DNA of 64,000 nucleotides from Candidatus Bathyarchaeota archaeon (GTDB lineage Archaea; Thermoproteota; Bathyarchaeia; Bathyarchaeales; Bathycorpusculaceae), in the NCBI GenBank assembly GCA_026014735.1, contig JAOZHT010000004.1, forward strand, positions 157,321 to 221,320. The letters run 5' to 3'. The notes under the pieces were generated by a model. That model ran no database searches. It was given only the letters and a program-made list of their open reading frames with translations, and was not told the DNA's origin. Below, piece by piece: positions 11,387 through 30,061 of the stretch. The first letter of the stretch is position 1. The number at the start of each line of letters is the position of its first letter. The position numbers and the translations under genes are program-made.

Positions 11387-11530
11387 GCTCAACCCTTTTT
11401 CTTTCTTTTTGTTTTCCAGCTTTGTCCTGTTGGTGCAACCAGCAGCTATCTTTTTGTTGGCTTAGATGTTTAGTGGGTTGTTTTAGCAAGCTTTTTATCC
11501 GATGGCAGCAACCGATGAGCAGGTATTCAG

Positions 11531-12145: not shown

Positions 12146-12222
12146 CTCCAAATATCCATTTTGCTTCCCGAAGCCGCAGGTTTTTTAGGTACAAACCGCC
12201 AAATCCATAGAGGGCAACAACC

Positions 12223-12735
12223 TTGGACTCAGAAGAATTGGCTAAGATGCAAAAAGCGCAGATACCGCAAAAAACCACAACCCTCACGCCAGACGACATC
12301 AGGTTTCTGGTGGAGACACTCAGCGAGAAAGACGACAAACTCCGCTACAACGCTTTTCTGCTTGTGCAGGCAGCCGCGAAGCGGTCAAACACCATCTATG
12401 GCTACTGGGATGTGCTGGAGCAGAAGCTGAATAGCGACAACTCGTATCAGCGCAGCATCGGCGTAATGTTGATTGCAGAAAACGTTCGGTGGGACACTGA
12501 GGGCAAATTCGGCGGCGCCCTGCCTAAATTTCTGGCATGCTGCAACGACGAGAAATTCATCACTGCGCGGCAGACCCTTCAGGCATTTGTAACCATCATA
12601 AAATCGACAGATGCATACAACAAAGCTATCGGGGAGGCGGTGGCGGGTTTGAGTTTTGCTCAGTATAAGGAAAACCAGCAGTCGCTTCTAAGGAAGGATG
12701 CGGCGAATGTGCTTGCGGCGATAAGGCGCAGGTAG
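12223..12735 (+). CDS. HEAT-like helical repeat protein
   Basis: 170 residues, predicted soluble and all-helical, with two-helix repeats such as DDKLRYNAFLLVQAAAKRS and NSYQRSIGVMLIAENVRW that resemble HEAT repeats. It starts with TTG at 12223 behind GAGGG (12211-12215); an ATG at 12247 is the alternative. No catalytic motif is seen, so a scaffold or adaptor role is likely. Confidence 0.7.
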   Translation: MDSEELAKMQKAQIPQKTTTLTPDDIRFLVETLSEKDDKLRYNAFLLVQAAAKRSNTIYGYWDVLEQKLNSDNSYQRSIGVMLIAENVRWDTEGKFGGALPKFLACCNDEKFITARQTLQAFVTIIKSTDAYNKAIGEAVAGLSFAQYKENQQSLLRKDAANVLAAIRRR

Positions 12736-12920
12736 AAACCTCTTTCATGCGGCTGTCTCAAGGCAGCGGTTTTTCTGCTAATCGGCATTATCCGCTTTTA
12801 CCGCTCATGGGGGCTCCGTAGCCGCCAGCCTAACGGTTAGTCCAAATAGATTTAACCTTATATAATGGCGCCTATAGTTGTTGGAACATCAAGTAAACGT
12901 TGAGTTAGGAGAGAAGAAGG

Positions 12921-13352
12921 GTGGATGAAATCCTAGAGTTGATGGAAAAAACCTCCAAGCGAATACAGAAAACAGTCGAGCAGACCAAAGAAAACATCTG
13001 GAAACAAGCCGCAATCTATGAGCAGCTCCAGCAGTCACCTGAAGCCACACAGGACCAGAAGACCAAAGCCTTCATCAAAAAAACCTTTGAGCTGGACCGG
13101 TTGGAGTGGCAGAATTCACAGTTAAGCCTGATTTATCTGCTTCAGATCTTCGCGTTTAAAGTGAAGGTTCTTGAGGTTTCCGTCGGCAAAATCCATGACG
13201 AAGTAAGCAAGTCGGGGGTCCTGCAGAGCGGCGAAGAACTTCAGGATATCAAAAAGAACATAGATGCCCTCAAAATCCTCATGGAAGCCCAATACGATTC
13301 AATGAAGGAAATCAACGAATCACAGAACAAGAACCTCGGCTACATCCACTAG
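12921..13352 (+). CDS. Small coiled-coil protein
   Basis: 143 residues, almost wholly helical and charged, with heptad-like stretches at both ends (LMEKTSKRIQKTVEQTKENI and DIKKNIDALKILMEAQYDSM) and a more hydrophobic middle (LSLIYLLQIFAFKVKVLEV) too polar for a clear membrane span. Starts with GTG after a GGAGAGAAGAAGG ribosome binding site. A TATA-like TTATATAATGG lies at about 12857. Family not recognised. Confidence 0.7.
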   Translation: MDEILELMEKTSKRIQKTVEQTKENIWKQAAIYEQLQQSPEATQDQKTKAFIKKTFELDRLEWQNSQLSLIYLLQIFAFKVKVLEVSVGKIHDEVSKSGVLQSGEELQDIKKNIDALKILMEAQYDSMKEINESQNKNLGYIH

Positions 13353-13440
13353 CCGATTTTTTAAATAATAAAAAGAGCAGCTTGGCGATTCAACCATAGG
13401 GTTGATTGCCTACAGCTATGCTATGTTTGTTCCAGCTATC

Positions 13441-14361
13441 TTAGAAGAGCTTTTCCCAGCTTGTGACTAGGTCGAGTACTTCTTGGCCTGCTTTGCCGCC
13501 ATAGCTCTTAAGACGCTCGCGAGTGTCTTTTTCTGCGATGGCTTTCTTTTGGAATTCCTGCATCTGATATGCTTTGTCAGTGAGGTAAAGTAAACCGTCA
13601 ACGCCTGCGCGTGCCATGCGGACTGAGACTGTGAGCAACTCGCTTGCGGTGGGTGTTTCTCTTGGGTCGTCGCCGGGGCCAATAACGTAGAGTGCAATGT
13701 TTAGTTTTGTGTCTTTGAAGAGTTTCTTGAAGTTGCGTGTAAGCATTTCCCAGTACCATGGTGTAGCATAGTTCTTGCTGAACATGACAACGAACATTTC
13801 GGTTGTGAGCGGTAGCATGTCGTCGAAGTTGACGCCGAAGCGTTCATAGTTTGTAACTGGGTCTGGTAGGATACCGATGTAGAGTGGTTTTTTGGCTCTG
13901 TTGATTACGCGGTCGCTTGTTGCAGCCATGTATTCAGTGACTTCTTTTCGTCTCCACTCATACCAGCTAAGGCCGCTTTTTGCGTGGAGTTCTTTGCAGC
14001 GTGGACAGGTGCAGTGACCGTGTTCAGCGAAGTGAATGCTGTTAAGCCAGACACCTTGGCTTTTGCGCGCTACGTCTTCCATGTAGTCAAGTTGTTCTGC
14101 TCTGTGTTCTGGTTGAGTTGCGCAGAGGACTTCCCAGCGTACGTTGAAGTTATCGTTGGTTCTCCATGCTGGACCAAGATCACTTTGGCTGATCCAGTCT
14201 GGGTGCAGGCGTGCTGCGACGTTGTCACCGAAGATTGCGACGTTACTGTACATATCAGCTTTGGGGGGCAGTCGTCTTCCGACTTCAGGCTTAGTGCGGA
14301 AAAGGTCAAAGTCGAAGCCTGGAACTTTCTTTGCTTCAAACATGTATGTGCCGAATTTCAT
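13441..14361 (-). CDS. Conserved protein of unknown function, TIM-barrel-like
   Basis: 306 residues, no signal peptide. HFAEHGHCTCPRCKELHAKS contains a Cys/His cluster (HxHxCxCxxC) that could bind a metal. Later segments (KKPLYIGILPDP, LPLTTEMFVVMFSKNY, KLNIALYVIGPGDDPRETP, ARAGVDGLLYLTDKAYQ) alternate strand and helix in a beta/alpha-barrel pattern reminiscent of glycoside hydrolase-like proteins. I cannot name a family or substrate. It is monocistronic with clear codon bias, so certainly a gene. Confidence 0.75.
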   Translation of the reverse strand: MKFGTYMFEAKKVPGFDFDLFRTKPEVGRRLPPKADMYSNVAIFGDNVAARLHPDWISQSDLGPAWRTNDNFNVRWEVLCATQPEHRAEQLDYMEDVARKSQGVWLNSIHFAEHGHCTCPRCKELHAKSGLSWYEWRRKEVTEYMAATSDRVINRAKKPLYIGILPDPVTNYERFGVNFDDMLPLTTEMFVVMFSKNYATPWYWEMLTRNFKKLFKDTKLNIALYVIGPGDDPRETPTASELLTVSVRMARAGVDGLLYLTDKAYQMQEFQKKAIAEKDTRERLKSYGGKAGQEVLDLVTSWEKLF

Positions 14362-14509
14362 TTGCTTCTACCTTTTTAGAACTCAAAACGTTTGGCGCGG
14401 TTATAAAGTTTTGCGTATAGAGATTTATGGAAGTCACGCACCTTAAACTGCAGTTTGCCGATTGCTTATCTAATTAAAAGAAGAAAAAGACGGGTGAGCT
14501 TTACCGAAT

Positions 14510-15463
14510 TTATGGAGGTGGAGGCGGAGGCGGCGGTAAGCCGGAAACACCACTCTGCTTTTTACGCACAAACAAAACAGCCGCCAAAACAGAAACTACT
14601 ACAACTATGATGATTACGGCGATAAGTAGCGTTGTGTTGTCTGAGTTATTGATTGTTTGTGGCGGGGGAGTTACTGTGGCGGTTTGGGTTGCTGTGGGTT
14701 GATTGGTGGGTGACGCCGTTGGAGTGGTAGTTGGGGCGGGAGTTACAGTTTCAGTTGCGTTTGCCTGTACAGTGATGGAGGCGGTGGTTGCGTTCACCAA
14801 TGGAAAATCCGCTATGGAGACGGTGATGGTTTGTGTACCCACCGTATTGAGGGTTACATTATAGACGCCTGTGCCGCTTATGAGGTTACGCGGCAGTCCC
14901 TGCGGTAAGTAGATTGCTTGGGTGTCAGTTGAAGCAAAGTTGACTGATTTACCCCAACCAGACGTGCCAATGTCAGTCAGAACATTAGCTGAAGCATCTA
15001 CAACTGTAGCTGTAACGTTAACTTGTCCGCCTGCCTCAACCGTTAGTGGATATACTGAGACGACTAAAGAGATTGGCTGAACAGTGACGGTTAATGTGCC
15101 TGTTAAGGTGTTATCTGTGGTATCGGTTACGGTAACTGTTTGGTCGCCCGGAGTTCCAAAGTACATGGATCGGGTTGCTATTCCGTTGATTACGTCTATG
15201 GTTGTGTTTGTTGGAAGTATGGCGTGTGGGTCATTGCAGGTCAGGGTGACTGCACCGTTGAAGGTGGCAACTTTGGTTTCGGTGGCGTCCATGGCGGTGA
15301 TTATGATGTTGTTAGCCATAGCTTGAGTGTAGGGTGTTGTCAGGAAGGTTACTGTGTAGTGAGTTACGGGTCCAGCGGCGGATGCTGGGTTTGTTAGGTT
15401 TAGGGAAATGGCGCCAACTATTACTGTGATTAACAAAATTGTCAAGATATGTTTTTTTGGCAA
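14510..15463 (-). CDS. Exported Ig-like protein with C-terminal anchor and polyproline tail
   Basis: 317 residues: signal peptide (ILTILLITVIVGAISLNL), two Ig/invasin-like beta domains (about 32-130 and 132-235), a Thr/Pro-rich stalk (about 238-275), a membrane helix (LLIAVIIIVVVVSVLAAVLF) and a cytoplasmic tail KKQSGVSGLPP ending in eight prolines. It is probably a cell-surface or S-layer-associated protein. The run of prolines inside the cell is unusual and may be a protein-binding handle. Confidence 0.8.
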   Translation of the reverse strand: MPKKHILTILLITVIVGAISLNLTNPASAAGPVTHYTVTFLTTPYTQAMANNIIITAMDATETKVATFNGAVTLTCNDPHAILPTNTTIDVINGIATRSMYFGTPGDQTVTVTDTTDNTLTGTLTVTVQPISLVVSVYPLTVEAGGQVNVTATVVDASANVLTDIGTSGWGKSVNFASTDTQAIYLPQGLPRNLISGTGVYNVTLNTVGTQTITVSIADFPLVNATTASITVQANATETVTPAPTTTPTASPTNQPTATQTATVTPPPQTINNSDNTTLLIAVIIIVVVVSVLAAVLFVRKKQSGVSGLPPPPPPPP

Positions 15464-15587
15464 GGTTTACCCCTTAGTTAGCGTTATCTGGTTCCTTACG
15501 TTTTAAGGTTTGCGCTCACAGACACTGACTAGCTTAAAGCCCTACAGAAAAACCAAAAAAGTTCAGTGAAAATTAAGTGGAATCCGA

Positions 15588-16358
15588 TCATGCGCTGATT
15601 TTTGGCGGCGGACGCACCCGCTTCTTGCCAAGTTTAACCCGAAGAGCCACACGGTAGAGTTTGCGCAGAGACTTCACCAGCAGTTCCAAGGTTGGCGCGG
15701 TGCTGTAAATAATTGGGATTTGCTCGTATTCGGCTATGCGTATGGCTTGCTCGTCAGGCTGGGCTTTATGGAAGACCACTATGCGGGGTTTGAGGCTGCA
15801 TACCCGCACAATCATCATCGGCAAGCTTCCGCCATCTACGTTAGTGAAGATCAATGCCCTCTCCGTGGATGCCCCGAAAAGCTGCGCGTACTCCAACCCT
15901 GAGTATGCCTCAACTGCTTTTCGGCTGTCGATAACCGTGTAACCCGTGATTTCTTTAACGTACCTGTCCTTGCATGCTACAACTTCGCCGCCGATGGCTT
16001 TGCAGAGGTACTCCACTCGGACGGGAATGGGGAACTCGCGTAAATCCACCACCGCCATGCTTGGTGAACTGGTAAGTTTGGAGAATTCACGGATAAAGCG
16101 GCTGCCCTTCTGCTCGTCGATAATCAGCAGCGATAGGACGAATCGGCGGATGAATTTGGCTCCGGGGCTTTTGCGTCTGCCGCTTTCGTAGTCGCTTACC
16201 ACCGAAGAGGAGAGCCTCATCACCTGCGAGAGGCTAATTTGAGATATGGCGAAGAGTTCCCGCCACTTCTTCATGGTGGTGCCTGGCCTGCTTGAGAGAA
16301 TGATTTCTCCAGCAATCCTTCTAGCTAAAACTTCTTTTAGGCTAGGCGACACCGACAT
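15588..16358 (-). CDS. XRE-type archaeal transcriptional regulator (COG1709-like)
   Basis: 256 residues. An N-terminal HTH of the Cro/XRE type covers about residues 33-64 (FAISQISLSQVMRLSSSVVS then DYESGRRKSPG). The C-terminal part binds an unknown ligand and contains ALIFTNVDGGSLPMMIVR. The layout matches the archaeal regulator family I know as COG1709. It is divergent from alba with a 223-nt region between them that contains a 7-bp palindrome (AAGCTTC/GAAGCTT) at about 16467-16488, a possible operator. Confidence 0.85.
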   Translation of the reverse strand: MSVSPSLKEVLARRIAGEIILSSRPGTTMKKWRELFAISQISLSQVMRLSSSVVSDYESGRRKSPGAKFIRRFVLSLLIIDEQKGSRFIREFSKLTSSPSMAVVDLREFPIPVRVEYLCKAIGGEVVACKDRYVKEITGYTVIDSRKAVEAYSGLEYAQLFGASTERALIFTNVDGGSLPMMIVRVCSLKPRIVVFHKAQPDEQAIRIAEYEQIPIIYSTAPTLELLVKSLRKLYRVALRVKLGKKRVRPPPKISA

Positions 16359-16581
16359 GTAAGTTAATCTCCCTGTTTGTAACTTCCCTCCAAAATTAGG
16401 GTATTAAACTTTCCGTTTTTTCCCGAACCCCCACAACTTATTAGTCGCTACGGGATGGGAAAGTAAAAGCTTCTTTATTAGGAAGCTTGCATAATAAACA
16501 GTAACGTTCGCTCTCTCAGCGATGAGTGCCAGCGCAACGTAAATACAATGCAAAACAAATTCAAAAAAGGAGTGAAAGTAC

Positions 16582-16872
16582 ATGTCTGAAAAAGCCAGTG
16601 ACGTAATTTTCGTCGGAAACAAACCACCCATGAGCTACGTGCTCGCCATCATAACCGCATTCTCAAGTGGGTCCCAAAAAGAAATAACCCTAAAAGCCAG
16701 AGGTCAAGCAATCACCACCGCAGTTGATGTCGCCGAAATCACCAGAAGCCGCTTCATAAAAGACCTCAAAGTAACAAAGATCGCAATTGGAACCGCAGAG
16801 ATGCCACCCAGAGAAGGCGAAAACAGGTCCAGAATGGTTTCCACGATAGAGATTACTCTCTCTAAAGCGTAA
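16582..16872 (+). CDS. albA: Chromatin protein Alba
   Basis: 96 residues, whole-length Alba: SDVIFVGNKPPMSYVLAII contains the nucleic-acid binding lysine loop, followed by LKARGQAITTAVDVAEITRS and a C-terminal ISTIEITLS-like strand. Alba coats DNA and RNA as dimers in most archaea. It has a good ribosome binding site (AAAGGAGTG) and its own promoter region shared with the divergent regulator. Confidence 0.96.
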   Translation: MSEKASDVIFVGNKPPMSYVLAIITAFSSGSQKEITLKARGQAITTAVDVAEITRSRFIKDLKVTKIAIGTAEMPPREGENRSRMVSTIEITLSKA

Positions 16873-16927
16873 ACCTGACGGAATAAAAAATTAGAAGAGA
16901 GTTTTGACTCTCAAACCCTTTTAATTT

Positions 16928-17779
16928 TTATTTCTTCTCAATGTACTCTTCGACTTTTGCTACAACTTGCATGAAAGCTTTCGCTGCAGCCGAATCCTTC
17001 TGCGATAGCACAAATGGCTTGCCCTTATCTGAATCCACGCCGACTTTGGGGTCGATGGGTATGCTGCCTAAAAACTCCACGCTTGTCTCCTTAGCCATTT
17101 TTTCGCCGCCTCCTGAGCCGAATATCTCGGTTTTCTTTCCGCAGTGGGGGCAAACAAACCCGCTCATGTTTTCAACTACGCCGATGGTGGGCATTTTGAC
17201 TGTTTCTGCGAAGGTTATGGCTTTCTTTACGATGTTGCTTGAAAGCTGCGTGGGCATGGTGACGATTACGACGCCGTCCATTTCAGGCAGCAGCTGCGCG
17301 ATGCTTAAGGGTTCGTCGCCTGTTCCGGGCGGCAAGTCGATGAAGAGAAAATCAAGTTCGCCCCAGACGATGTCGACGAGGAACTGGCGGATGGCTCGCA
17401 TCTTGAGGGGCCCACGCCAGATAGTCGGTGCTTCCTGCGAGAGGAAGAAGTCGATGGACATCACTTTTATGCCCAATGGACCCTCGATGGGGAAGGCGCC
17501 TGCGGGGGTGGCTTTCACCTCTTTGCCCTCCAGACCCAGAAGCCTCGGTACGCTTGGGCCATGGATGTCCGCGTCTAAGATTCCGACTCTGTGGCCTTTC
17601 TGGGCGAATGCCACTGCGAGGTTGACGGTGACGGTGCTTTTGCCGACGCCGCCTTTGCCGCTGATAACGGCGATTTTATGTTTAATTTTGCTCATTCGAT
17701 CTTTAAGTTCTTGCTCTTCCTGCTTTTGTTGCTCTCGGTAAGCTTGAAGTTGAGCCATGTTTCTCTCTAAAGACGCCAT
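16928..17779 (-). CDS. Mrp/NBP35-type iron-sulfur cluster carrier ATPase
   Basis: 283 residues from ATG 17779; the frame extends to 17824 but the chosen Met gives the usual short helical leader. It has a deviant Walker A (AVISGKGGVGKSTVTVNLA), ILDADIHGPSVPRLLG, Walker B region LDFLFIDLPPGTGDEPLS and the cluster-binding C-x2-C (GFVCPHCGKK). It assembles and transfers [4Fe-4S] clusters to apoproteins, which suits a genome with many Fe-S proteins such as the 7.9-11.4 kb operon. Confidence 0.93.
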   Translation of the reverse strand: MASLERNMAQLQAYREQQKQEEQELKDRMSKIKHKIAVISGKGGVGKSTVTVNLAVAFAQKGHRVGILDADIHGPSVPRLLGLEGKEVKATPAGAFPIEGPLGIKVMSIDFFLSQEAPTIWRGPLKMRAIRQFLVDIVWGELDFLFIDLPPGTGDEPLSIAQLLPEMDGVVIVTMPTQLSSNIVKKAITFAETVKMPTIGVVENMSGFVCPHCGKKTEIFGSGGGEKMAKETSVEFLGSIPIDPKVGVDSDKGKPFVLSQKDSAAAKAFMQVVAKVEEYIEKK

Positions 17780-17875
17780 AAAAATCAACCCATGTTTGTA
17801 TTTAAGGTCTGATTCTTCCACCACTAAAAAGGGTTATGGATAAATTTTCCCCTAAGAATCGGCATAGAATGCAGG

Positions 17876-18376
17876 CTAGAGCTTGTAGCCTATTTTCCGA
17901 AGAAACCCCCGGCGCTCAGCCACATCCGCATCTGCCTCTATACCCTTGCTCCCATAGCCATCCACGACGCCGATGATGCCTCTGCCCTGCTCAGTCTCCG
18001 CCACCAGAACCTCCAGCGGATTAGCCGACGCAGCATGGATAGTGCAGACTTCGGGGACTGCCTTGATTTTGTCAAGCACGTTTAGGGGGTAAGCGTTTTT
18101 TAGGAAGATGATAAAGCTGTGTCCGCAGCTGATTTCAAAGGCTTTCTCCGCTGCCAGCCGACGCAGTTGTGGGTCGTTGCCTTCGTGGCGTACAAGGCAG
18201 GGTCCGCTGGCTTCGCAGAAGCCGATACCGAAGTTTATGGTGGGCACCGAGTTAACCATTGCCTCGTATAGGTCTTCGGCGGTTTTTATGAAGTGCGCCG
18301 TGCCCAAGATGGTGTTGCAGTCGGGTGGCGGCGTGATTTTAACGGTTTTTAACTCCAAGGTTTTGTCTCCAAGCAT
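17876..18376 (-). CDS. Adenosine-specific kinase (DUF355 family)
   Basis: 166 residues covering the whole family known as adenosine-specific kinase (PF04008). Characteristic segments are [51 protein letters not shown] and [19 protein letters not shown]. Members bind adenosine/AMP; in vivo function remains uncertain. It is upstream of the Mrp gene on the same strand with a gap of about 95 nt. Confidence 0.92.
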
Positions 18377-19153: not shown

Positions 19154-21793
19154 ATGAGAGCGCTGTTAAGAATAACATCCACTTTGTTTCTATTATCATT
19201 AATCATATTTAGTAGTGCCATGGTTTTGATGCAGCCTGCAATCGCTGTTCCAGATTCAGCCTCATGGCCAATGTTTCACGCAGACCCAGCTCACACAGGA
19301 TACACATCGGCCAACGGTCCATTAACCAATCGCACACTATGGACTTATCAAACAGGTGGAGACGTGTTTTCTTCTCCCTGTGTAGTTAACGGCATACTCT
19401 ATGTGGGCTCAGATGACAATAACGTGTATGCCTTGAATGCTTCTTCGGGCGAAAAACTTTGGAACTACAGCACAGGCGATACGGTGGAATCATCCCCTTG
19501 TGTTGTCAACGGATTACTTTATGTGGGTTCCCATGACAGTAACGTGTACGCCTTGAATGCTTTAACGGGTACAAAAATTTGGAACTACTCAACTGGAGGT
19601 TGGGTAATCTCTTCTCCCTGCGTTGTTGATGGCGTCGTCTATGTGAGCTCTGGGGATAGCAATGTGTATGCCTTGAACGCTTCCACAGGCACTAAGCTTT
19701 GGAGCCATGCAGCAGGTTGGTTTGGTGCAGAGAGTTCGCCCTGTGTTGCTGACGGCGTTGTCTATTTAGGCACAGACCATTTCTATGTGTATGCTTTGAA
19801 TGCTTCGACCGGTTCAAACATTTGGAGCTATGACATAGGTGAGTACGTAGACTATTCTCCCTGCTTTGCTGATGGCGTAGTCTACATCGGGTCAGGCAGT
19901 GGCATCACGGCTGATGGCCATGTAACTGCTTTTAACGCCTCTTCCGGCGAAAAGATTTGGACCTACACAGCCGAGCATTTAGGAATAACAGCGGATGGCT
20001 GGGTGATGTCATGCCCCAGCATCGTTGATGGCATAGTCTATGTAGGCTCAAACAATCATAACCTGTATGCTCTAAATTCCTCCACTGGTAATCTGATATG
20101 GAACTACACAACAGACGGTTGGGTAGCCTCTTCCCCATGTGTCGCCAATGATATAGTTTATGTAGGCTCAACTGACTGGAATATTTACGCCATTAACGCT
20201 TCAAGTGGCTCAAAAATTTGGAGTTACATAGCGGGTTCAGCCATTCGATCATCTCCCTGCATGGCTAATGGTATAGTCTATGTGGGCTCATCTGACAATA
20301 AAGTCTACGCTTTTGGTGAAGCTGAAGCGGATGTATTTTATATCACGGCATCCGCGGGTGAAGGAGGCTCAATTAATCCAAGCGGAGTGGTGCCAGTCAA
20401 CCGCGGCGGTAATCAATCTTTCATCATTACACCCGACGCTGGTTTCTCCATAGCTGATGTTCAAGTCAACGGTGTTCCCTTGGGACCTCTTGCATCCTAT
20501 AAATTTAGCAATTTAATGGCAAATGCCACTATACATGCAACTTTTAGTCCCAATACCTATACAATAACATTAAATACGATTGGTTCAGGGTCCATTAGTC
20601 GTAATTCCTCTGAGCCCTATGTTTATGGGCAAGCTGTTAATTTGACAGCTTCTCCTTCTATAGGCTGGGTTTTTAGCGGTTGGAGTGGAGATGCTTCTGG
20701 CAAGTCCAACCCTGAAACAATAATCATGGATTCGAACAAGACTGTAACAGCCACTTTTATTCAGAACGCCTACATCTTAACAGTGAACACGGTTGGCGAG
20801 GGGTCAGTTCAACGAAATGCCACTGAACCCTACAGCTACGGGCAGGTAATCAGCCTAACAGCTAACGCTGCATCAGGTTGGGCATTTCAAGGCTGGAGCG
20901 GCGACTTAACAGGCAAAACCAACCCTGACACGATAATTATGTATGCAAACAAGACAGTCACAGCAACGTTTGCGCGTCAAAATCTGACTGGGAACACGAT
21001 AGTATTTACGCAAACCGGGTTGCCCGACGGCACCGCTTGGAGTGTTAAATTCAACAACATAAAAATAACCTCTACGCAATCAACAATTACTTTCGATAAC
21101 ATAACTAAGGGAACCTACTGCTGGGCTATTCAAACACCAATCGCGGGGACCACCGGAGTAAGATATGTTACAAAAGCCACATGCGGAATAATGACCGTTC
21201 CACTGCAAACATCCAAAAACGTCACCTTCACAACACAATACCAACTCACCATAAATACGGTAGGTCTTGCATCAAATCACCACACAACCATTTGGCTCTG
21301 CAGAAACATTCGAGGCACCGCATCAAACAACGTGCCCTTCATAATGTGGTTTAACGCTGGCGACCACACCGGAAGCATCGGTGCTAGCGCATTAATCGCC
21401 GACTCATGCACCAAAAGCAAGTTTACCTCCTGGAACAACACAGTTGACTCCAATCCACATCCCTCAATCACCATGAACTCGCCAGTAACCCTCACCGCAA
21501 ACTATGACACAAAAGTAAAAGTCACCTTCAAAGTGACGGGTGTTCCTGTATTCTTCAGGGGACCTGTCGTCAACATCGACGGCTATGACTACACGAGGTT
21601 TCAGTTACCCTCAACCTTCTGGTGGAGTCTAAGTTCAAATCACACGTTCCAATACTACTCACCGCTAAGCGTAAACTGCAATATTCAAAGCATTTGGGTA
21701 TCAACCTGCGGTTTATCAACTCAACAAGCAGCCACAGTTACTCTAAACAATGCAGGTGTAATAACCGCCAACTACTGCTTTAAGTGTACTTAG
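19154..21793 (+). CDS. Large exported surface protein with PQQ-type propeller and InlB-like repeats
   Basis: 879 residues with a signal peptide (LLRITSTLFLLSLIIFSSAM). Residues about 55-385 hold some eight or nine PQQ-like propeller repeats with the pattern SSPCV-x-G-x-VYVGS-x(5)-VYALNASSG-x(2)-IWNY. Residues about 390-600 hold three divergent InlB-type repeats (GWSGDASGKSNPETI, NKTVTATF). A C-terminal part of about 270 residues rich in Thr/Asn/Cys follows; it has no membrane anchor and ends YCFKCT. Probably secreted or attached through another protein. Many NxS/T sites suggest glycosylation. It lies between tRNA-Ala and a tRNA-Ala fragment. Confidence 0.9.
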   Translation: MRALLRITSTLFLLSLIIFSSAMVLMQPAIAVPDSASWPMFHADPAHTGYTSANGPLTNRTLWTYQTGGDVFSSPCVVNGILYVGSDDNNVYALNASSGEKLWNYSTGDTVESSPCVVNGLLYVGSHDSNVYALNALTGTKIWNYSTGGWVISSPCVVDGVVYVSSGDSNVYALNASTGTKLWSHAAGWFGAESSPCVADGVVYLGTDHFYVYALNASTGSNIWSYDIGEYVDYSPCFADGVVYIGSGSGITADGHVTAFNASSGEKIWTYTAEHLGITADGWVMSCPSIVDGIVYVGSNNHNLYALNSSTGNLIWNYTTDGWVASSPCVANDIVYVGSTDWNIYAINASSGSKIWSYIAGSAIRSSPCMANGIVYVGSSDNKVYAFGEAEADVFYITASAGEGGSINPSGVVPVNRGGNQSFIITPDAGFSIADVQVNGVPLGPLASYKFSNLMANATIHATFSPNTYTITLNTIGSGSISRNSSEPYVYGQAVNLTASPSIGWVFSGWSGDASGKSNPETIIMDSNKTVTATFIQNAYILTVNTVGEGSVQRNATEPYSYGQVISLTANAASGWAFQGWSGDLTGKTNPDTIIMYANKTVTATFARQNLTGNTIVFTQTGLPDGTAWSVKFNNIKITSTQSTITFDNITKGTYCWAIQTPIAGTTGVRYVTKATCGIMTVPLQTSKNVTFTTQYQLTINTVGLASNHHTTIWLCRNIRGTASNNVPFIMWFNAGDHTGSIGASALIADSCTKSKFTSWNNTVDSNPHPSITMNSPVTLTANYDTKVKVTFKVTGVPVFFRGPVVNIDGYDYTRFQLPSTFWWSLSSNHTFQYYSPLSVNCNIQSIWVSTCGLSTQQAATVTLNNAGVITANYCFKCT

Positions 21794-22076: not shown

Positions 22077-22670
22077 ATGGTTGATTTAGTTTCAACAGCT
22101 GCCAACACACTCAACTTGCTCGGAACAGCGTCATTCATCATTATAATCGCGTATTTGACCGTAACATTCACCCAAAAAAAGTTAAGCACTAAAAACCCTT
22201 GGCTTCCAAAAGTAACTGTCGGCATAGTATTTGGGTTACTTTCTGCTTATGGAACACTCATGGCTGTCAAACTTTCCGATGGCACAATTCCCAACGTACG
22301 GGAATTAGGCGCCATGATAGCGGGGGTAACGGGGGGACCCATCGCTGGCACAGTTGCAGGGTTAATCGGTGGAATTCACAGATTTAGCGTAGGGGGCCCA
22401 ACGATGATTCCCTGCGGCGTCGCCACTATAGTTGCCGGCGCAGTTGCGGGAAGTGTTAGCGCCAAACTAACCGGGAAATTCTACCTGCTAAAAGCAGCAG
22501 CTGTCGGATTTGCTTTAGAATCCTTTGCTATGGCACTTGTGTTTGTGTTTCTGCCTTTTGAAGCAGCCTATATGATTGTTTACCAAGTGTATATTCCAAT
22601 GATTTCCGCCGCCACAATAGGCTTAACAATATGGACTTACTTCCTAAACAAACTTAGAACAAAGAAATAA
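22077..22670 (+). CDS. Stand-alone 5TM receptor (LytS/YehU N-terminal-like) membrane protein
   Basis: 197 residues, about five or six membrane segments. The segment LGAMIAGVTGGPIAGTVAGL followed by GGIHRFSVGGPTMIPCGVAT matches the 5TM-5TMR_LYT sensor domain found at the N-terminus of LytS-type histidine kinases. No kinase or output domain follows; the protein ends NKLRTKK. It may sense or transport a small hydrophobic or acid ligand. ATG at 22077. Confidence 0.8.
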   Translation: MVDLVSTAANTLNLLGTASFIIIIAYLTVTFTQKKLSTKNPWLPKVTVGIVFGLLSAYGTLMAVKLSDGTIPNVRELGAMIAGVTGGPIAGTVAGLIGGIHRFSVGGPTMIPCGVATIVAGAVAGSVSAKLTGKFYLLKAAAVGFALESFAMALVFVFLPFEAAYMIVYQVYIPMISAATIGLTIWTYFLNKLRTKK

Positions 22671-22804: not shown

Positions 22805-23392
22805 TCATTTTTGGTCTTGGAGGGTCAAATTTCCTATTTTTTGGTGCTTTGCATTATCGAGGGATTTTTTATTTTCCGTTTGTCTTTCTATCTTCTGCAT
22901 GAATGCAAGTAGTCCTTTGATAATTTGCTTGGGAGACGGCGGATTTCCAGGAATTCTGAAGTCCACGCTAAAAACCTTGTCTGCTCCGCCTAATACCGCG
23001 TAAGAGTCGTTTAGGATTCCGTTTCCGCATGCATCATCGCCTACGGCAACCACATATTTGGGCGACGGCGTTGCCTCCCAGGTTTTCTTTGCTGCCCCTT
23101 CCATGTTACGTGTGATTGCTCCCGTAACTATGAGAACATCTGCATGCCTGGGGGAGGCAACAAATGTCACCCCGAAACGTTCCACATCATAGTAGGCTGT
23201 TGATAGATTATTTAGTTCAATCTCCACGGAGTTATCGCTGCCCGTATCGAGTTCGCGGATGGCTAGGCTTCTGCCGAAAACCTTGTCGATTTTATGCTTC
23301 AATTCTGCGCCAGTCACCTCTAATTCCTCATCTTTGAATCTAAAATCTTCAGGCATTTTCTTTGAAAAAATATTTCGTAACGCTTTTGACAT
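22805..23392 (-). CDS. NuoB/HycG-like small subunit lacking all cluster cysteines (Ehr-like)
   Basis: 195 residues from ATG 23392 (an in-frame ATG at 23413 inside the previous gene is possible). Strong resemblance to the small subunit of group 4 hydrogenases: VERFGVTFVASPRHADVLIV and TGAITRNMEGAAKKTW. The four Cys that hold the [4Fe-4S] cluster in HycG are replaced: DTGSDNSVEIE instead of a CxxC motif, an Asp in VGDDACGNG where the third ligand sits (a shifted Cys is two residues on), and PGNPPSP instead of PGCPP. So it should not bind the N2-like cluster. Last gene of the six-gene operon. Confidence 0.88.
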   Translation of the reverse strand: MSKALRNIFSKKMPEDFRFKDEELEVTGAELKHKIDKVFGRSLAIRELDTGSDNSVEIELNNLSTAYYDVERFGVTFVASPRHADVLIVTGAITRNMEGAAKKTWEATPSPKYVVAVGDDACGNGILNDSYAVLGGADKVFSVDFRIPGNPPSPKQIIKGLLAFMQKIERQTENKKSLDNAKHQKIGNLTLQDQK

Positions 23393-23393
23393 T

Positions 23394-24962
23394 TTATAAG
23401 TCCGTTCCTGCATACGATAGATTCATGCTTTTGTTTATCAAAGGAAAGTCGGGAACTATGTTTCCGAGCACCGCATGTTCCATAGCTTGCCAATTACAGA
23501 AAGAGGCAGTCCTCACTTTGTACCTGTCAACTAAACCGTTTTTAATTAGAACCCAATGCATGTTTTGTCCACGCGCCGCCTCAACCAACGATAAAGCATA
23601 ACCATCCTTGACTTTGAGAGCTTCCCCCACTGGCCCAGCCTCCAAAGTTAGAAGCTGCTGAATTAGTTTCACTGAATCAAGCACTTCTTCTGCTTTAAGA
23701 GTGAATCTATCGAGAACATCGCCGTTTACCTGTGTTCTTTCCTTCAAATCTAGCTCTTGGTATAAGCCGTATGAGTGGTGGATTCGAGTATCGGTCTTTT
23801 TTCCAGCAGCCCTTGATACGGGACCAGTGATATGCAGGGGAGATAATATTTCCGGTTTAACTATGCCGGTTGTTTCAAAGCGATCAATGACTGAGAAGAA
23901 ACTGCTATCCATCGCTGTCGCCGCACTGAGCCTTCGTGGAAAATCATGCATATATGCAGCGAGCTGATTGAGCGATGATTCGTCAATGTCTCTTGTTAAG
24001 CCGCCTACGGTTACTATACCTTTCAGGAATCGGCTGCCCGTTAACGCTTCATTTAACCTAAAGATTTCCTCTCTGAGAATAAACAGGGGGCTGGCTCCGG
24101 CGGGGTAGGCGACATCAACGAACATGCCTGCGAGGTCACCCAGATGAGAGTACACCCGCTCCAACTCCAGAAGCATCACCCTTAACTGTAACGCACGTCT
24201 AGGGACATGTGTTTCGCATATCTTCTCCACAGCATCGCAGAAGGCAACCGCATTCGCTACTGTTTCGTCGCCGCTTATGGTTTCAGCGATTTTCACGCAT
24301 TCCTGAGGACTTTTGCCTTCAGCCAGCTTCTCCAGCCCGCGGTGCTTGTAGAAGAGGCGAACCTCAAGGTTAAATATGGTTTCTCCGACCACGCTAAAGC
24401 GGAAATGCCCCGGTTCAATGATACCTGCGTGAACTGGACCAACTGGAATTTGGTAGACTCCCTCGCCTTTGACTTCTTTGAAGACATATTCTTTTTGGTT
24501 TTGGGATGACAGAGCTTCGATTTTGCCGTTTTTAAATTCTTTGAGGAGCGGATGGAACGATTCAGGGTAGCTTTCATGCAAAAAAAGCCGTCGTGTGTCA
24601 AATGCGCCCTCGAATTCTATTCCGAAGCCGTCGGTGATTTCCCGTTCATACCAGCAGGCTGAGGCGTAAGTTTTAGCGATAGAAACCGCTTTGTTGCTGG
24701 TTAAATCCGTTTGTAGAATCACTACTTCGCGGTAGCAGGCTTTCTCAAATGCATATAGCAGAGTGAATCCTTGACGCTGAAAGTTTTGGACGCAGAAAAG
24801 ACATATGAGCTCAAAGCCGGCTTCATCCATTGTTTTGGTTGCCATCGCAGCTTGTTTTTCGTCCATGTTGATGTAGATTTCATCGTTGAAAACTCTGATA
24901 TTTGCTATTTGGCTTTCGAGGAAGATTCGTGGAATTTCTTGTTTTATGCTCATGCTTTTCAC
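23394..24962 (-). CDS. HyfG/NuoCD-like large subunit without Ni-ligand cysteines (Ehr-like)
   Basis: 522 residues: a NuoC-like N-terminus (about 1-150) and a NuoD/hydrogenase large-subunit part (about 165-522) with IPVGPVHAGIIEPGHFRFS and HRGLEKLAEGKSP. At the first nickel motif, where hydrogenases have RICGIC, it reads TISGDE (residues 229-233 region). At the C-terminus, where they have DPCxxC, it reads NLSYAGTDL. All four Ni-Fe cysteines are gone, so it is not a hydrogenase. GTG start overlapping the previous stop (GTGA), with an ATG nine bases on as alternative. Confidence 0.9.
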   Translation of the reverse strand: MKSMSIKQEIPRIFLESQIANIRVFNDEIYINMDEKQAAMATKTMDEAGFELICLFCVQNFQRQGFTLLYAFEKACYREVVILQTDLTSNKAVSIAKTYASACWYEREITDGFGIEFEGAFDTRRLFLHESYPESFHPLLKEFKNGKIEALSSQNQKEYVFKEVKGEGVYQIPVGPVHAGIIEPGHFRFSVVGETIFNLEVRLFYKHRGLEKLAEGKSPQECVKIAETISGDETVANAVAFCDAVEKICETHVPRRALQLRVMLLELERVYSHLGDLAGMFVDVAYPAGASPLFILREEIFRLNEALTGSRFLKGIVTVGGLTRDIDESSLNQLAAYMHDFPRRLSAATAMDSSFFSVIDRFETTGIVKPEILSPLHITGPVSRAAGKKTDTRIHHSYGLYQELDLKERTQVNGDVLDRFTLKAEEVLDSVKLIQQLLTLEAGPVGEALKVKDGYALSLVEAARGQNMHWVLIKNGLVDRYKVRTASFCNWQAMEHAVLGNIVPDFPLINKSMNLSYAGTDL

Positions 24963-26434
24963 CTTATACCCAGCTCAGACACGATAGTGGTGAGCAAATC
25001 GCTTAGTTGATGGGGGAAGAAAACACCTAACGCAAATACCGATGCCAGCAAAACCACGATTGTAACCTTCATGCTTAAAGGCACACGGTAAACCTTGGGC
25101 GCCATGGTGTCTTCTTGCTTGTTTGTCAGCAATTTAATCAGGAAAACTCCAAATGCTGCGGTGGCAAAAAGGAAAATCACCAGCAACCCCAAAAGCAAGT
25201 AGGGGGAGTAAGTGGCGGATTGCATCAGAATACTGATTTTGGGGATGAATACCGCTCCTGTTGGCATACCAATTATTGCTATGGCACCCAAAATGAGGGT
25301 CCATGAAGCAAAAGGCTGGAGTTTGAAGGCGTTTTTTATTCGTTCCATTCTTACGCTTTCATACTGGTGATGCATTATGCCGGATGAGAAGAACAACGAA
25401 GCCTTGGTGAAAGCGTGCGCCAAAATGTAGAAGAGCGTCCAGAAAACCGCTACTGCCCCGCCAACGCCTAACCCCACGAGGAGAAAACCCATGTTTTCCA
25501 CCGTTGAGTACCCGATGAGTTTCTTGAGGTTTACTTGCGTTAGCATCGTTAAGGCGGCAACAACCATGCTTAGCACTCCGAAGGCGATGAGAAGCAGGGA
25601 GACCTTAGGTAAGATGCTGTTTTGAGCAGCTATAGCGTACATTCTGATGATGCCGTAGATGCCCACGCTTGTTATGCTTCCTGATAAAATCGCGCTGACT
25701 GATGCAGGCGCTTTGGAGTGGGCGCTAGGAAGCCAAGCGTGGAAGGGCACGACGCCTGATTTAGCCGCGAATCCAACGAAGGTGAATATGAAGGCTGCAA
25801 GCAGAATGCCCGGGGAGAGGGCACTTGCTATAGCCATTAAGGCGCTCCAATTCAGGGTTCCTGAGCCATAGGAAACATCAGTCATCGTAAAAAGCAGAAT
25901 CAGCCCGATGAATGCGAATAGCATGCATGTGGAAGTTATAAAAATGTACTTGAGAGTAGCCCCGATGTTTTTAGGCGCGTTTAAAATTACGATTAGAACG
26001 GCTGAGAAAGCAGTTGTTAACTCTGCAAGTATCCAGAACAACGCCAAGTTATCCGCCAAAAAAGCAAATGTTATAGCGACCAACAACAGGTTGAAGGCAA
26101 CGTAGAATAATTTGAGGTTGCTGCGCTCCATCTCATGGATTTCAATGGATCCCTCGATGTAGCCGCGTGAGTAAACTGCGGCAAAGAGGAACAGCACTGT
26201 TGAGAGGAGGATTTCATATATGGATAGGTGGTCGATTAGGAAGTAGTCTGCGCCTAAATTGTAGGCTGGCAGCGCTTCATGGGTTAATGTGAAGAGTGTA
26301 AGCAAAAGGTAGGTGGCTGGCAACAGGATTGAAAGGATATTCATGATTCGGTGAGACTTTGACAGTAATGTGCACAGTAGAACTGCTAATGCAACTAAGC
26401 CGTAACTTATGAGTATGAGATTTAGCGAAATCAT
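24959..26434 (-). CDS. HyfF/NuoN-type proton-translocating membrane subunit
   Basis: 491 residues and about 14 membrane helices of the Mrp antiporter/NuoL-M-N family. Conserved ion-path residues include the Glu in LALFWILAELTTAFSAVL, the Lys in AAKSGVVPFHAWLPSAHSKA and the later LAHAFTKASLFFSSG. It starts inside the stop of the HyfE-like gene and ends over the large-subunit start, so the genes are translationally coupled. One of two antiporter-like subunits in the complex. Confidence 0.9.
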   Translation of the reverse strand: MISLNLILISYGLVALAVLLCTLLSKSHRIMNILSILLPATYLLLTLFTLTHEALPAYNLGADYFLIDHLSIYEILLSTVLFLFAAVYSRGYIEGSIEIHEMERSNLKLFYVAFNLLLVAITFAFLADNLALFWILAELTTAFSAVLIVILNAPKNIGATLKYIFITSTCMLFAFIGLILLFTMTDVSYGSGTLNWSALMAIASALSPGILLAAFIFTFVGFAAKSGVVPFHAWLPSAHSKAPASVSAILSGSITSVGIYGIIRMYAIAAQNSILPKVSLLLIAFGVLSMVVAALTMLTQVNLKKLIGYSTVENMGFLLVGLGVGGAVAVFWTLFYILAHAFTKASLFFSSGIMHHQYESVRMERIKNAFKLQPFASWTLILGAIAIIGMPTGAVFIPKISILMQSATYSPYLLLGLLVIFLFATAAFGVFLIKLLTNKQEDTMAPKVYRVPLSMKVTIVVLLASVFALGVFFPHQLSDLLTTIVSELGIR

Positions 26435-27183
26435 TCTTTAGCCTCCTTGGGCTGTTTTGGGGTTGCTTCAATGTCCTCTAAGCGTCCATCGCGGGGTTGC
26501 TGCAGTTTCTTGGTGGTTTCTTGAAAAATGTTGAGGCGCGAATGGAACTCCTCTATGGTTGAGTCTATCCCAAAAGCCAATATCGTCGCCAGCAAAGTCA
26601 ACATGATTAAGTCAACAACTATGAGGACCTCGATTAGCAGGGGCAGTTCAGTTAAAAAGAGGCTGAATAGGACTACGCCATTTTCCATGGTGAGGTAGCC
26701 CACGATGTTTGTGATGGTTTGTTTACGGGTGAATATGACCATCATGCCCATGAACATAAGAGACATCCCTGTTGCCGCGCCGAGGAAGAAAAGGCTGCCG
26801 TCGAAGATGTTGAGGGGGGCAATCAAGGTGGAGAAGGATAGGTAAACAAACAGAACTATGAAAATGCTGACAAACAGTGAAGTTATGGGGGAGAGGAAAT
26901 GGAATTGGACATCCCGTTTAATGTGAAGCCTTCTTTGTATCTGCCCCATAAAGTAGGGAATGACGACGACTTTGCTGACTATAATCAGGATTGCTAAGCC
27001 GAGAAGCGTCCAGATGCCTGTTTCCACAAAAAACAGCAACGCCATAACCGCAAGCAACGCTGATTGAAATGCGTAGGTTTGGATGAGCGAACGTAGATTC
27101 CTCTTGACAAGGATAATGGCTGCGGTAGCGAGCACAAGAACAATGAGGATTTGAGTGATATCTTCAGCAGGAGCAATAATCAT
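26431..27183 (-). CDS. HyfE-like membrane subunit (NuoK-like)
   Basis: 250 residues, about seven membrane helices; the middle resembles hydrogenase-4 component E with a NuoK-like stretch (NIVGYLTMENGVVLFSLFL, containing the conserved Glu). The C-terminal tail is polar (EFHSRLNIFQETTKKLQQ). Starts in an ATGA overlap with the NuoH-like gene. The position between HyfC-like and HyfF-like genes matches the hyf order. Confidence 0.88.
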   Translation of the reverse strand: MIIAPAEDITQILIVLVLATAAIILVKRNLRSLIQTYAFQSALLAVMALLFFVETGIWTLLGLAILIIVSKVVVIPYFMGQIQRRLHIKRDVQFHFLSPITSLFVSIFIVLFVYLSFSTLIAPLNIFDGSLFFLGAATGMSLMFMGMMVIFTRKQTITNIVGYLTMENGVVLFSLFLTELPLLIEVLIVVDLIMLTLLATILAFGIDSTIEEFHSRLNIFQETTKKLQQPRDGRLEDIEATPKQPKEAKE

Positions 27184-28124
27184 GCGAATACCTCGAGAAT
27201 CAACGTGATAATGGAAAGAAACAGCGCCAGAGCGAAGAGTCCGGGCAGACGGAAAAAGCGTGATTTGGCGCAGGACGATTCAAAGACACCGATAATGACT
27301 GCGAGTATTATTGCCTTAAACATGAAGGCGCCAAGCGAAATCAGGATGGCGACCACAGAGAATTCTGTTGCTAATCCCCATGGAACGAGAACGTTGATGA
27401 GTAAACCCATGAGGAGAAGTTGCTTCATGGCGCCGGAGAGTTCCATCAGCGCCAAATTTTTGCCCGATTGCTCCAAAATCATCGCTTCATGAACCATAGT
27501 GAGTTCAAGGTGGGTTTCAGGGTTATCCACTGGCACCCGTGCAGACTCCACGATAAGCACGATGAAGAGCGAGACACAGATGGGGATGAGAACGGAGTCC
27601 ACAAGCACTGTGGAGGTTAAGGCGCCCCGAAACATTTCGGGGATACTGGTGGTTTTAAAGGCGAAAGCCAACGCGGCGAACACCACGATAGCTGTGGGCT
27701 CAATAAGCGCAGATATCGCCATTTCCCGGCTGCTCCCCATGCCGCCAAATGTGCTGCCTGCATCAAGGCCTGAGAGAGCCATGAAAAACTTCGCCAACGC
27801 CAACAGGTAAATGAAGAGGATTATGTTGCCGACTAAGTCGGTGGGGTGTGGAATGACCAGCATTGGAACAAAAAGACTTGCCACCAGCAGGGCAGCGATG
27901 TTTATCAGCGGTGTAATCCGCATGATCCACGATGAATTCTCGGAATAAACCGTTTCCTTCTTGAACAGTTTTGCCAGATTGCGGTAGGTCTGCAGTAGGG
28001 GTGGACCTTGCCTTTTTTGGGCGAAGGCTTTGACTTTTTTGATGAGGCTGATGAAGAGGGGTGCAAGCATCACTGTGAATGCCACGTTCAGTATCCCGTA
28101 TAATACGAGTGTCAGATCCGTCAT
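27180..28124 (-). CDS. HyfC/NuoH-like membrane subunit
   Basis: 314 residues from ATG 28124 (ATGA overlap with the upstream stop). About eight membrane helices and the family's well-conserved loops: KAFAQKRQGPPLLQTYRNL, GMGSSREMAISALIEPTA and ESARVPVDNPETHLELTMVH. NuoH links the peripheral arm to the ion-pumping membrane arm, so conservation of these loops argues that this complex still couples a conformational or redox event to ion movement despite its lost metal sites. Confidence 0.92.
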   Translation of the reverse strand: MTDLTLVLYGILNVAFTVMLAPLFISLIKKVKAFAQKRQGPPLLQTYRNLAKLFKKETVYSENSSWIMRITPLINIAALLVASLFVPMLVIPHPTDLVGNIILFIYLLALAKFFMALSGLDAGSTFGGMGSSREMAISALIEPTAIVVFAALAFAFKTTSIPEMFRGALTSTVLVDSVLIPICVSLFIVLIVESARVPVDNPETHLELTMVHEAMILEQSGKNLALMELSGAMKQLLLMGLLINVLVPWGLATEFSVVAILISLGAFMFKAIILAVIIGVFESSCAKSRFFRLPGLFALALFLSIITLILEVFA

Positions 28125-30061
28125 GCAAACCACCAGATAATCAAGAGGAAAATCACTATAGTTGCAAATGCGTAGGCAACATGCAAGTCAACGTCGCCAC
28201 GCTGAATATTATTAACTTTAAGCGCCACCCAACGAACTATGTTAGCGACTGGCAGATAGAGGCGTTCTTCAAAAAATTTCATAAGACGAATTTCAGCTTT
28301 CCCCTCTTTGAAAATAACTTTGTGGTCGTCGCTGAAGGTGCGTTCGGATATCTTTTGGGTGCGGAAGATCGATTTGAGGATGGTAACGATTGGCTCAGAG
28401 AAGCCAGAGGCGGTGTATTCCATTTTGCTGTTTTGCACGGGGATACCGCAGCCCCAGGTTTCAGCAATGCGTTCCCGTTTGCATGCGAACTCTCTTAGGG
28501 CAAAAAAAGTAGCGCCATACATGACGGCAAGGATTGCGCCTACAAGCAGCATGTTAGGTAACTGAAAACTGTAGCCTAACAAACCAAAGATTTGAAGCGA
28601 GAAAATCCCCAGTCCAATGCATAGCGCCGCCAAAATTGCGGGTCCAGCCAGCATTAGCTTGGGTGATTCTTGGGCGTTTCTTGTTTCTTGTGAACGGGGG
28701 AGGGCCAGGAAGGTGATTCCGAAGGCCTTCACGAAGCATGCGGCTGCCAACGCGCTGGTGAGGGCGAACACTGCCAACGCCACAATTATGAGTAATTCAA
28801 GGAAGGGGTTGGCTAAGGCGTAGGATTGGAAGAAAGCCTGGAAGATCATCAGTTCACTGACGAAGCCATTGAAGGGTGGCAGCGCGGAGATGGAGATTGC
28901 GCCGATGAGGAAGAGCACTGTGGTGGCGGGCATGCGTTTGATTAATCCGCCCATTTCCTCGATGTTGCGGGTTCCTGTGGCGTTAACTATGCTTCCGCTG
29001 GTGAGGAAGAGGAGGCTTTTGAAGAGGGCATGGTTGAGGGTGTGGAAGAGGCCGCCTGCCAATGCGAGCAGTCCGATGAGGGGGAGATTTGAAGCTGTGA
29101 ATATGACGTATAAGCCTAAACCGATGAGGATTATGCCTATGTTTTCTATGCTGTGGTAGGCGAGCAAGCGTTTTATGTCATGTTCCTTCAATGCGTAGAT
29201 AACGCCTAGGACTGCTGAGGTTGCTCCCACGGCAAGGATAAGCATGCCCCACCATAACTGCAGGGGCATAAGCAGAACAAAGCGGACTAAGCCGTATATG
29301 GCGACTTTTATCATTACTCCGGACATGAGTGCGGATATGTTGCTGGGGCTTGCTGGGTGAGCGTATGGAAGCCACTTGTGGAAGGGAATGATGCCGGCTT
29401 TGATGCCGAAGGCGAGGAACAGGAAGATAAAAGCAATTGATGTAACCCATTGGCTTGCTTGTATATTCTGGATGTTAAAGGTGCCTGTAGCCGTGTAGAT
29501 GAATAGAAAAGCGAAGAGTAGAAAGAGTGTACTGAGATGTGTCATGATAAAGTAGAATATGCCTGCTTTCTGGGTTTCCTGCTTTTCATACTCGGTCATA
29601 ACCAGGAGGAATGAGGCGAGAGCCATGATTTCCCAGAAAAACAAGAAGGAGAACATGGTTGATGAAGCAACAACCAGAAGCATCGATACAACAAAGACGT
29701 TCATGAGGGAAACAAGCATGTTGCGCCTGTTTTCATGCTTCAAGTGCTCAACGTATGGAATTGAGTAAACCGCAACTGCCACCGAAACTATGCTTACTAT
29801 GAATAGGAAAAACGCGGCTAACCTGTCAATTGCGAAGGCGAATTGGAACGCGGGTGTTATCTGGTACGCCACATAGGAAGTGCTTTTGCCGGTAAGGACT
29901 GTTTCTGTAGAAAAAATTACAATACTTATGCTTGCGATGAAGGTGCATAGGAGAGATGTTTGCCGTGGGATTTTGCCTTTAGTTACCCTTGTACCTATCG
30001 GCGGCAAAATGATTGCAAGAAAAAATACTGTTAAACCTATTGGAAACAGAATCTCTAACAT
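28121..30061 (-). CDS. HyfB/NuoL-like proton-translocating membrane subunit
   Basis: 646 residues, first gene of the operon. A 14-helix antiporter-like core with WEIMALASFLLVM (Glu), GIKAGIIPFHKWLPYAHPAS (Lys, His) and LFHTLNHALFKSLLFL (His, Lys), then a C-terminal extension of about 150 residues ending in another helix (ATIVIFLLIIWWFA). The extension resembles the HyfB type. Its ATG is at 30061 with no gene close upstream, so the operon promoter should lie in 30062-30250. Confidence 0.92.
   Translation of the reverse strand: MLEILFPIGLTVFFLAIILPPIGTRVTKGKIPRQTSLLCTFIASISIVIFSTETVLTGKSTSYVAYQITPAFQFAFAIDRLAAFFLFIVSIVSVAVAVYSIPYVEHLKHENRRNMLVSLMNVFVVSMLLVVASSTMFSFLFFWEIMALASFLLVMTEYEKQETQKAGIFYFIMTHLSTLFLLFAFLFIYTATGTFNIQNIQASQWVTSIAFIFLFLAFGIKAGIIPFHKWLPYAHPASPSNISALMSGVMIKVAIYGLVRFVLLMPLQLWWGMLILAVGATSAVLGVIYALKEHDIKRLLAYHSIENIGIILIGLGLYVIFTASNLPLIGLLALAGGLFHTLNHALFKSLLFLTSGSIVNATGTRNIEEMGGLIKRMPATTVLFLIGAISISALPPFNGFVSELMIFQAFFQSYALANPFLELLIIVALAVFALTSALAAACFVKAFGITFLALPRSQETRNAQESPKLMLAGPAILAALCIGLGIFSLQIFGLLGYSFQLPNMLLVGAILAVMYGATFFALREFACKRERIAETWGCGIPVQNSKMEYTASGFSEPIVTILKSIFRTQKISERTFSDDHKVIFKEGKAEIRLMKFFEERLYLPVANIVRWVALKVNNIQRGDVDLHVAYAFATIVIFLLIIWWFA

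Follow-up and report, generated by a model that had tools for sequence, protein, structure and literature searches.

The operon on the minus strand at positions 22805 to 30061 of the window, by which we mean the whole 64,000-nucleotide stretch of a Candidatus Bathyarchaeota archaeon analysed here (contig JAOZHT010000004.1, positions 157,321 to 221,320), is assigned by homology to the Ehr (energy-converting-hydrogenase-related) complexes, in a form whose small subunit (S) has lost every cysteine that would bind a [4Fe-4S] cluster. None of the four ligands is kept in any of the nine members of the window's clade (9/9), whereas all four are kept in 24 of the 25 Ehr outside it, a non-random set: its 13 bacterial rows, all on plasmids, were chosen among the hits of searches that listed 247 records each, and its 12 archaeal rows come from a single phylum. 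The sole exception is carried on a plasmid of Allomeiothermus silvanus. The operon is a real and well conserved variant of Ehr, not a new kind of system.

Loss of metal ligands in the soluble subunits

Ligand positions were read from alignments of the large subunit (L) with E. coli HycE, HyfG and NuoCD, and of S with HycG, HyfI and NuoB. In L, the first nickel motif, CGIC, is replaced by S230-G231-D232-E233 (24264 to 24275), and the second, CYSC, by S516-Y517-A518-G519 (23406 to 23417); the stretches TISGDE and NLSYAGTDL, which a sequence-only reading of this DNA had proposed to stand in place of the nickel CxxC motifs, are thereby placed at both sites. The tyrosine of NuoD that we take to bind quinone aligns with Gly231. 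That reading had also described S as devoid of all four cluster cysteines, and the alignment bears this out: the CxxC pair has become D60-N61-S62-V63 (23225 to 23236), with D60 and V63 at the ligand positions, the third cysteine is D127, close to a retained C129 (23027 to 23035), and the fourth is N157 (22943 to 22945), which turns PGCPP into PGNPP. D60, D127, N157 and C129 are invariant across the clade, while position 63 is occupied by V, T or A. C129 follows the third lost ligand by two residues, and the same position is a cysteine in cluster-bearing archaeal Ehr. A cysteine of L, C222, is specific to the clade (8/8 clade rows, 0/16 other Ehr rows). No replacement set of cysteines or histidines was found at equivalent positions when L and S were aligned with Hyc/Hyf, Nuo and Ehr sequences.

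To separate what is ordinary for Ehr from what is not, Ehr rows were gathered from plasmids and from genomes of the window's phylum, giving a combined alignment of 34 large subunits, the window included. Three candidates had been dropped before the counts: one from Nonomuraea (a complex I NuoB), one from Azospirillum argentinense p2 (a true hydrogenase, which became a control) and one from Streptomyces (a small subunit only, with no large subunit in the fetched stretch). A nickel-site CxxC was found at neither site in any of the 34, and at both sites in six of six hydrogenase controls (HycE, HyfG, the window genome's own hydrogenase, two archaeal enzymes and one from Azospirillum). The loci were also scanned, across the operon and up to 3 kb of flanking DNA (less on several contigs), for a HyfH-like gene, taken as an open reading frame (ORF) of under 300 residues with two CxxCxxCx(2-4)C motifs. 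Such an ORF was present at none of the 33 Ehr loci besides the window's and at six of nine control loci; at a seventh, the hydrogenase of the window's genome, a one-motif hit corresponds to its NuoI-like subunit. In the window none was found between 18000 and 34000, in agreement with the sequence-only reading, which had reported no HyfH or NuoI gene at the operon. Loss of the nickel site and absence of HyfH are therefore features of Ehr as such, and since both are common to every sampled Ehr, only the ligand loss in S is special. The description of this complex as "further stripped" holds for the S ligands but not for the missing HyfH, a gene lacking at all the other Ehr loci sampled and so no sign of additional stripping.

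Purifying selection acts on both soluble subunits. The ratio of nonsynonymous to synonymous substitution rates (dN/dS), measurable for two pairs of close relatives, is 0.086-0.130 for L and S and 0.041-0.103 for the membrane subunits, and the reading frames are open in all nine copies. The former active-site region of L (SGDE, NKSMNLSYAGTD) is strongly conserved in the clade, and 87 of the 202 positions of S are invariant in a seven-row clade alignment.

In the membrane subunits, charged residues lining the channels of the antiporter-like subunits and the NuoH-like chain are retained, as had been proposed for the HyfB, HyfC, HyfE and HyfF types. Conserved in seven of seven aligned clade members are E144, K221, K252, H340, H344 and K348 of the HyfB-like subunit, E138, K225, K304, H340 and K344 of the HyfF-like subunit, E145, D203, E210, E216 and E221, among others, of the HyfC-like subunit, and E167 and E185 of the HyfE-like subunit.

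Organization of the operon and comparison with known complexes

The operon consists of six ORFs, neighbours overlapping by 4 to 20 bases, and the complex I/hydrogenase-4 likeness seen in the sequence-only reading is confirmed by domain models, Pfam recognising five of the six and NCBIfam all six (the HyfE-like one below its cut-off). In order of transcription, they encode a HyfB/NuoL-type antiporter-like membrane subunit of 646 residues (28121 to 30061; Proton_antipo_M; NF006418, 882 bits against a cut-off of 794), a HyfC/HycD/NuoH-type membrane subunit of 317 residues (27180 to 28133; NADHdh, 3.8e-34), a HyfE-type membrane subunit of 250 residues (26431 to 27183; NF008556, PRK11492, hydrogenase 4 membrane subunit, 6.4e-15), a HyfF-type antiporter-like membrane subunit of 491 residues (24959 to 26434; Proton_antipo_M; NF006427, 587 bits against 511), L, a fused NuoC and NuoD protein of the HycE type with 522 residues and a GTG start (23394 to 24962; Complex1_30kDa and Complex1_49kDa, with a weak NiFeSe_Hases match), and S, of the NuoB/HycG type with 202 residues (22805 to 23413; Oxidored_q6, 4.9e-23). 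The closest relatives in the PDB are subunit 5 of formate hydrogenlyase (FHL) for L (7z0s_E, 1.7e-61) and FHL subunit 7 for S (7z0s_G, 1.7e-29). No electron-input module of the NuoEFG or FpoFO kind was found among the six genes and the two neighbours scanned, unlinked copies not having been searched.

Ehr complexes are widespread, with examples in Rhodococcus, Cupriavidus, Azospirillum, Bradyrhizobium and other bacteria and in archaea, and they share with the window operon the same six subunits, the absence of HyfH, the loss of both nickel CxxC motifs and the signatures S-G-D and NKS...SY(A/S)G. They usually differ from it in carrying the four [4Fe-4S] ligands of the small subunit, a trait that the published definitions consulted do not include. 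Of the known complexes, E. coli formate hydrogenlyase and hydrogenases-3 and -4 (Hyc, Hyf) are the closest solved homologues of L and S, and their membrane subunits are homologous too; however, none of their nickel or cluster cysteines is lost, and they include the ferredoxin-like subunits HycB/HycF or HyfA/HyfH. With neither the two CxxC nickel motifs nor HyfH/HycF, the window operon falls outside the group 4 [NiFe] hydrogenases. Its NuoB-, NuoCD-, NuoH- and NuoL/M/N-like subunits are shared by sequence with respiratory complex I, but the NuoE, NuoF, NuoG and NuoI subunits of Nuo/Fpo are missing from the operon, as are the N2 cluster ligands of the NuoB-like subunit. The Mrp cation/proton antiporters, with NuoL/M-type subunits and no redox centre, would resemble it in mode of action. 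The window operon differs from them in possessing HyfC/NuoH-like and L/S subunits, which to our knowledge are absent from Mrp.

The Ehr family is named in PMC6349859, PMC10284858, PMC4378227, PMC12342949 and PMC10432482; in these papers, the large subunit is described as lacking the nickel- and iron-binding residues (PMC6349859, PMC10284858, PMC12342949), the function is called unknown (PMC10284858, PMC4378227, PMC12342949, PMC10432482) and Ehr are reported from ammonia-oxidising archaea (PMC10432482). PMC13194489 regards the Ehr of Geobacter as non-functional because the NiFe site is missing, and PMC7894505 finds Ehr subunits abundant in formate-grown cells. No mention of cluster loss in an Ehr small subunit was found in the portions of the literature available, which did not include Coppi 2005 or Marreiros 2013.

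How complex I turns redox chemistry into ion pumping is still disputed. Here is a natural relative in which the coupling route is complete, from L/S through the NuoH-like subunit to the antiporters, yet no redox centre has an evident site; it sets the mechanical side apart from electron transfer and opens the former to testing. Coppi 2005 and Marreiros 2013 are reportedly the founding Ehr papers and are cited by some later ones.

Distribution and phylogeny

Besides the window, the nine-member clade comprises six genomes from its genus, one from a different genus of the family, with a fragmentary contig, and a record titled Aenigmatarchaeota, whose contig could be misbinned. It is recovered with support of 100/100 in both the L and the S tree. 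Its L and S proteins are 57-76% identical to those of the window, and the order of the six genes is the same in the six other members with contigs covering the operon. In named records, loci matching L at 66-73% are titled Candidatus Bathyarchaeota or Crenarchaeota.

The clade-type small subunit occurs in 8 of 256 genomes of the class (at least 341 bits, the next match scoring 158), namely in 7 of 32 genomes of the genus and in one elsewhere in the family. An Ehr-type large subunit was found in 15 of 398 sampled genomes of the phylum (at least 484 bits, next match 438.5); twelve of the 15 belong to two families that are not in the class, and the cluster ligands are kept in 12 of 12 cases. A first large-subunit tree placed Ehr apart from the hydrogenases and Nuo at 100/100, whereas in a larger tree without Nuo the hydrogenases stand beside archaeal Ehr at 88/78, so the trees do not settle whether all Ehr form a single clade. 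Two scans for relatives in viral contigs gave no hit. Among 14 control genomes, only Methanosarcina acetivorans passes the equivalog cut-offs of both NF006418 and NF006427, which means that our sample may understate how wide, and how well known, the clade is; with its close relatives of the membrane subunits, this species is a possible test organism.

The small subunit of the Ehr-like operon on the A. silvanus (Meiothermus) plasmid pMESIL01 (L081, 3951-11126) also lacks all four cluster cysteines, but with other replacement residues than in the window's clade; both nickel motifs are lost, and the motif at the first nickel site is changed. One clade uniting Meiothermus with the bathyarchaeal set is rejected by the L data (approximately unbiased test, p = 0.011) and not by the S data (p = 0.465). 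A shared origin of the two losses is disfavoured by L and left undecided by S.

Redox partners and related systems in the host genome

The host genome (2.9 Mb, 99% complete) encodes a complete 11-subunit nickel hydrogenase with intact motifs (L163, G000:C1:768001-787000, 8590-18313), matching the Hfo type as described in PMC7886697; with this enzyme in the same genome, redox-driven pumping is served elsewhere. NuoI-like matches occur in all 32 genomes of the genus, whether or not the operon is present. One such gene of the host, encoding a protein with two [4Fe-4S] motifs (G000:C2:754000; L162, G000:C2:744001-763000, 9301-10362), is an orphan, unlinked to any complex I-type operon and lying beside flavodoxin-like genes. 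By hand count, this orphan is found in 4 of the 7 genomes of the genus that have the operon and in 6 of the 25 that do not (Fisher p = 0.17), and is not a strict partner; absent from three of the seven, it was rejected as the strictly co-occurring HyfH-like gene that the sequence-only reading had named as a finding that would refute it. Inspection by eye of the flanking ORFs revealed no recurring partner gene beside the operon across the clade, beyond neighbours shared by close relatives.

The classical Mrp subunit MnhG, the only Mrp marker tested, is absent from all 32 genomes of the genus, although 6 of 14 control genomes yield a hit with the same model. The operon therefore does not duplicate an Mrp. 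The idea that it replaces one was dropped as uninformative, MnhG being missing throughout the genus.

Possible modes of action

The explanation we favour, tentatively and just short of calling it probable, is that of a six-subunit Ehr without any known redox-centre ligand that would work without internal electron transfer, as an Mrp-like transporter. The parts would assemble as in formate hydrogenlyase, the HyfB/HyfF/HyfE/HyfC membrane arm would move cations and/or protons in the manner of an Mrp-type antiporter, exchanging cations for protons, and the HycE/HycG-like L/S pair would form a folded cap over the HyfC-like subunit, holding the complex together and gating it. We infer assembly into one complex, the transport of ions, which ion moves and in which direction, and gating by L/S; the proposal is based on the ligand loss being complete and fixed in all nine members while the soluble subunits are constrained, and on the retention of proton-channel residues with no electron-input gene in the operon or its flanks. 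Several observations weigh against it. The conserved old active-site region of L suggests a role beyond that of a lid, and the invariant D60, D127 and N157 together with C129 could still hold a metal. The AlphaFold2 predictions for S and L, built on alignments of seven rows, are poor (mean predicted local distance difference test scores of 43 and 50), and MnhG, missing from the operon-lacking genomes as well, says nothing about substitution. A bolder formulation, which we hold to be possible but doubtful, sees a member of the complex I superfamily turned into a cofactor-free ion machine, driven or gated by ligand binding or non-redox chemistry in the old hydrogenase/quinone cleft, with at least one origin in archaea and perhaps a second in Meiothermus.

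The sequence-only reading had stated that the complex must couple ion movement to something other than internal electron transfer, or else use a soluble partner. The first of these was an inference rather than a necessity, for a metal site with oxygen or nitrogen ligands, or a partner bearing a cofactor, is also possible. In the latter case, a soluble or separately encoded redox protein would dock on L/S and pass electrons or hydride to a small molecule in the cleft, so that Ehr-like pumping would bypass the lost cluster. Other Ehr are thought to use partners such as formate dehydrogenase (PMC6349859 and PMC7894505), the cleft motifs of L are strongly conserved, and the orphan NuoI-like gene with its flavodoxin-like neighbours might supply such a protein; but the S cluster, usually the last carrier, is gone, no linked partner recurs, no ORF with two [4Fe-4S] motifs lies near the operon and the orphan is missing from three operon-bearing genomes, which makes this route unlikely. 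Ranking below it, and rather improbable, is the idea that ion movement would be driven or gated from the L/S cleft, by ligand binding there or by a reaction other than a redox one. The former metal sites are now polar and do not vary (S230, D232, E233 and S516 in L; D60, D127 and N157 in S), but with 87 of 202 positions of S invariant three such residues are unremarkable, and the gene context suggests no substrate. By analogy, the DabA/DabB system is believed to link the hydration of CO2 with a NuoL-like subunit.

Lower again we place an unusual metal centre, whose ligands would be D60, D127 and N157 with C129, or else L cysteines, C222 being one candidate. The invariance of the four S residues and the restriction of C222 to the clade speak for such a site, whereas position 63, being V, T or A, cannot be a ligand, and C129 is shared with cluster-bearing archaeal Ehr; moreover, we know of no cluster with Asp/Asn and Cys ligands in the small-subunit fold. 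Least probable by far is a decaying relic of an Ehr complex, to which the patchy presence in the genus might point; the open frames in nine copies and dN/dS values near 0.1 for L and S show that this is not decay and largely refute it.

Divergent plasmid operons and neighbouring genes

Divergent Ehr-like operons were also seen on plasmids of Burkholderia cenocepacia (L142) and Caballeronia (L143), where the nickel motifs are replaced by SGVD and GLTI(A/S)GCAR and the small subunits carry an extra C..C..C..C motif; the former has a DUF190 gene upstream. A plasmid of Streptomyces sp. NBC_01483 (L141) encodes, at 8860-9372, an Ehr-like small subunit in which one cluster cysteine is replaced by arginine. 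In the window itself, a lone membrane domain protein of the 5TMR-LYT type (PF07694), without a kinase, is encoded on the plus strand at 22077-22670, convergent with the Ehr operon. At 19154-21793 (plus strand) lies the gene of a large protein that, judged by eye from its signal-like start and repeated PQQ-propeller-like stretches, may be secreted.

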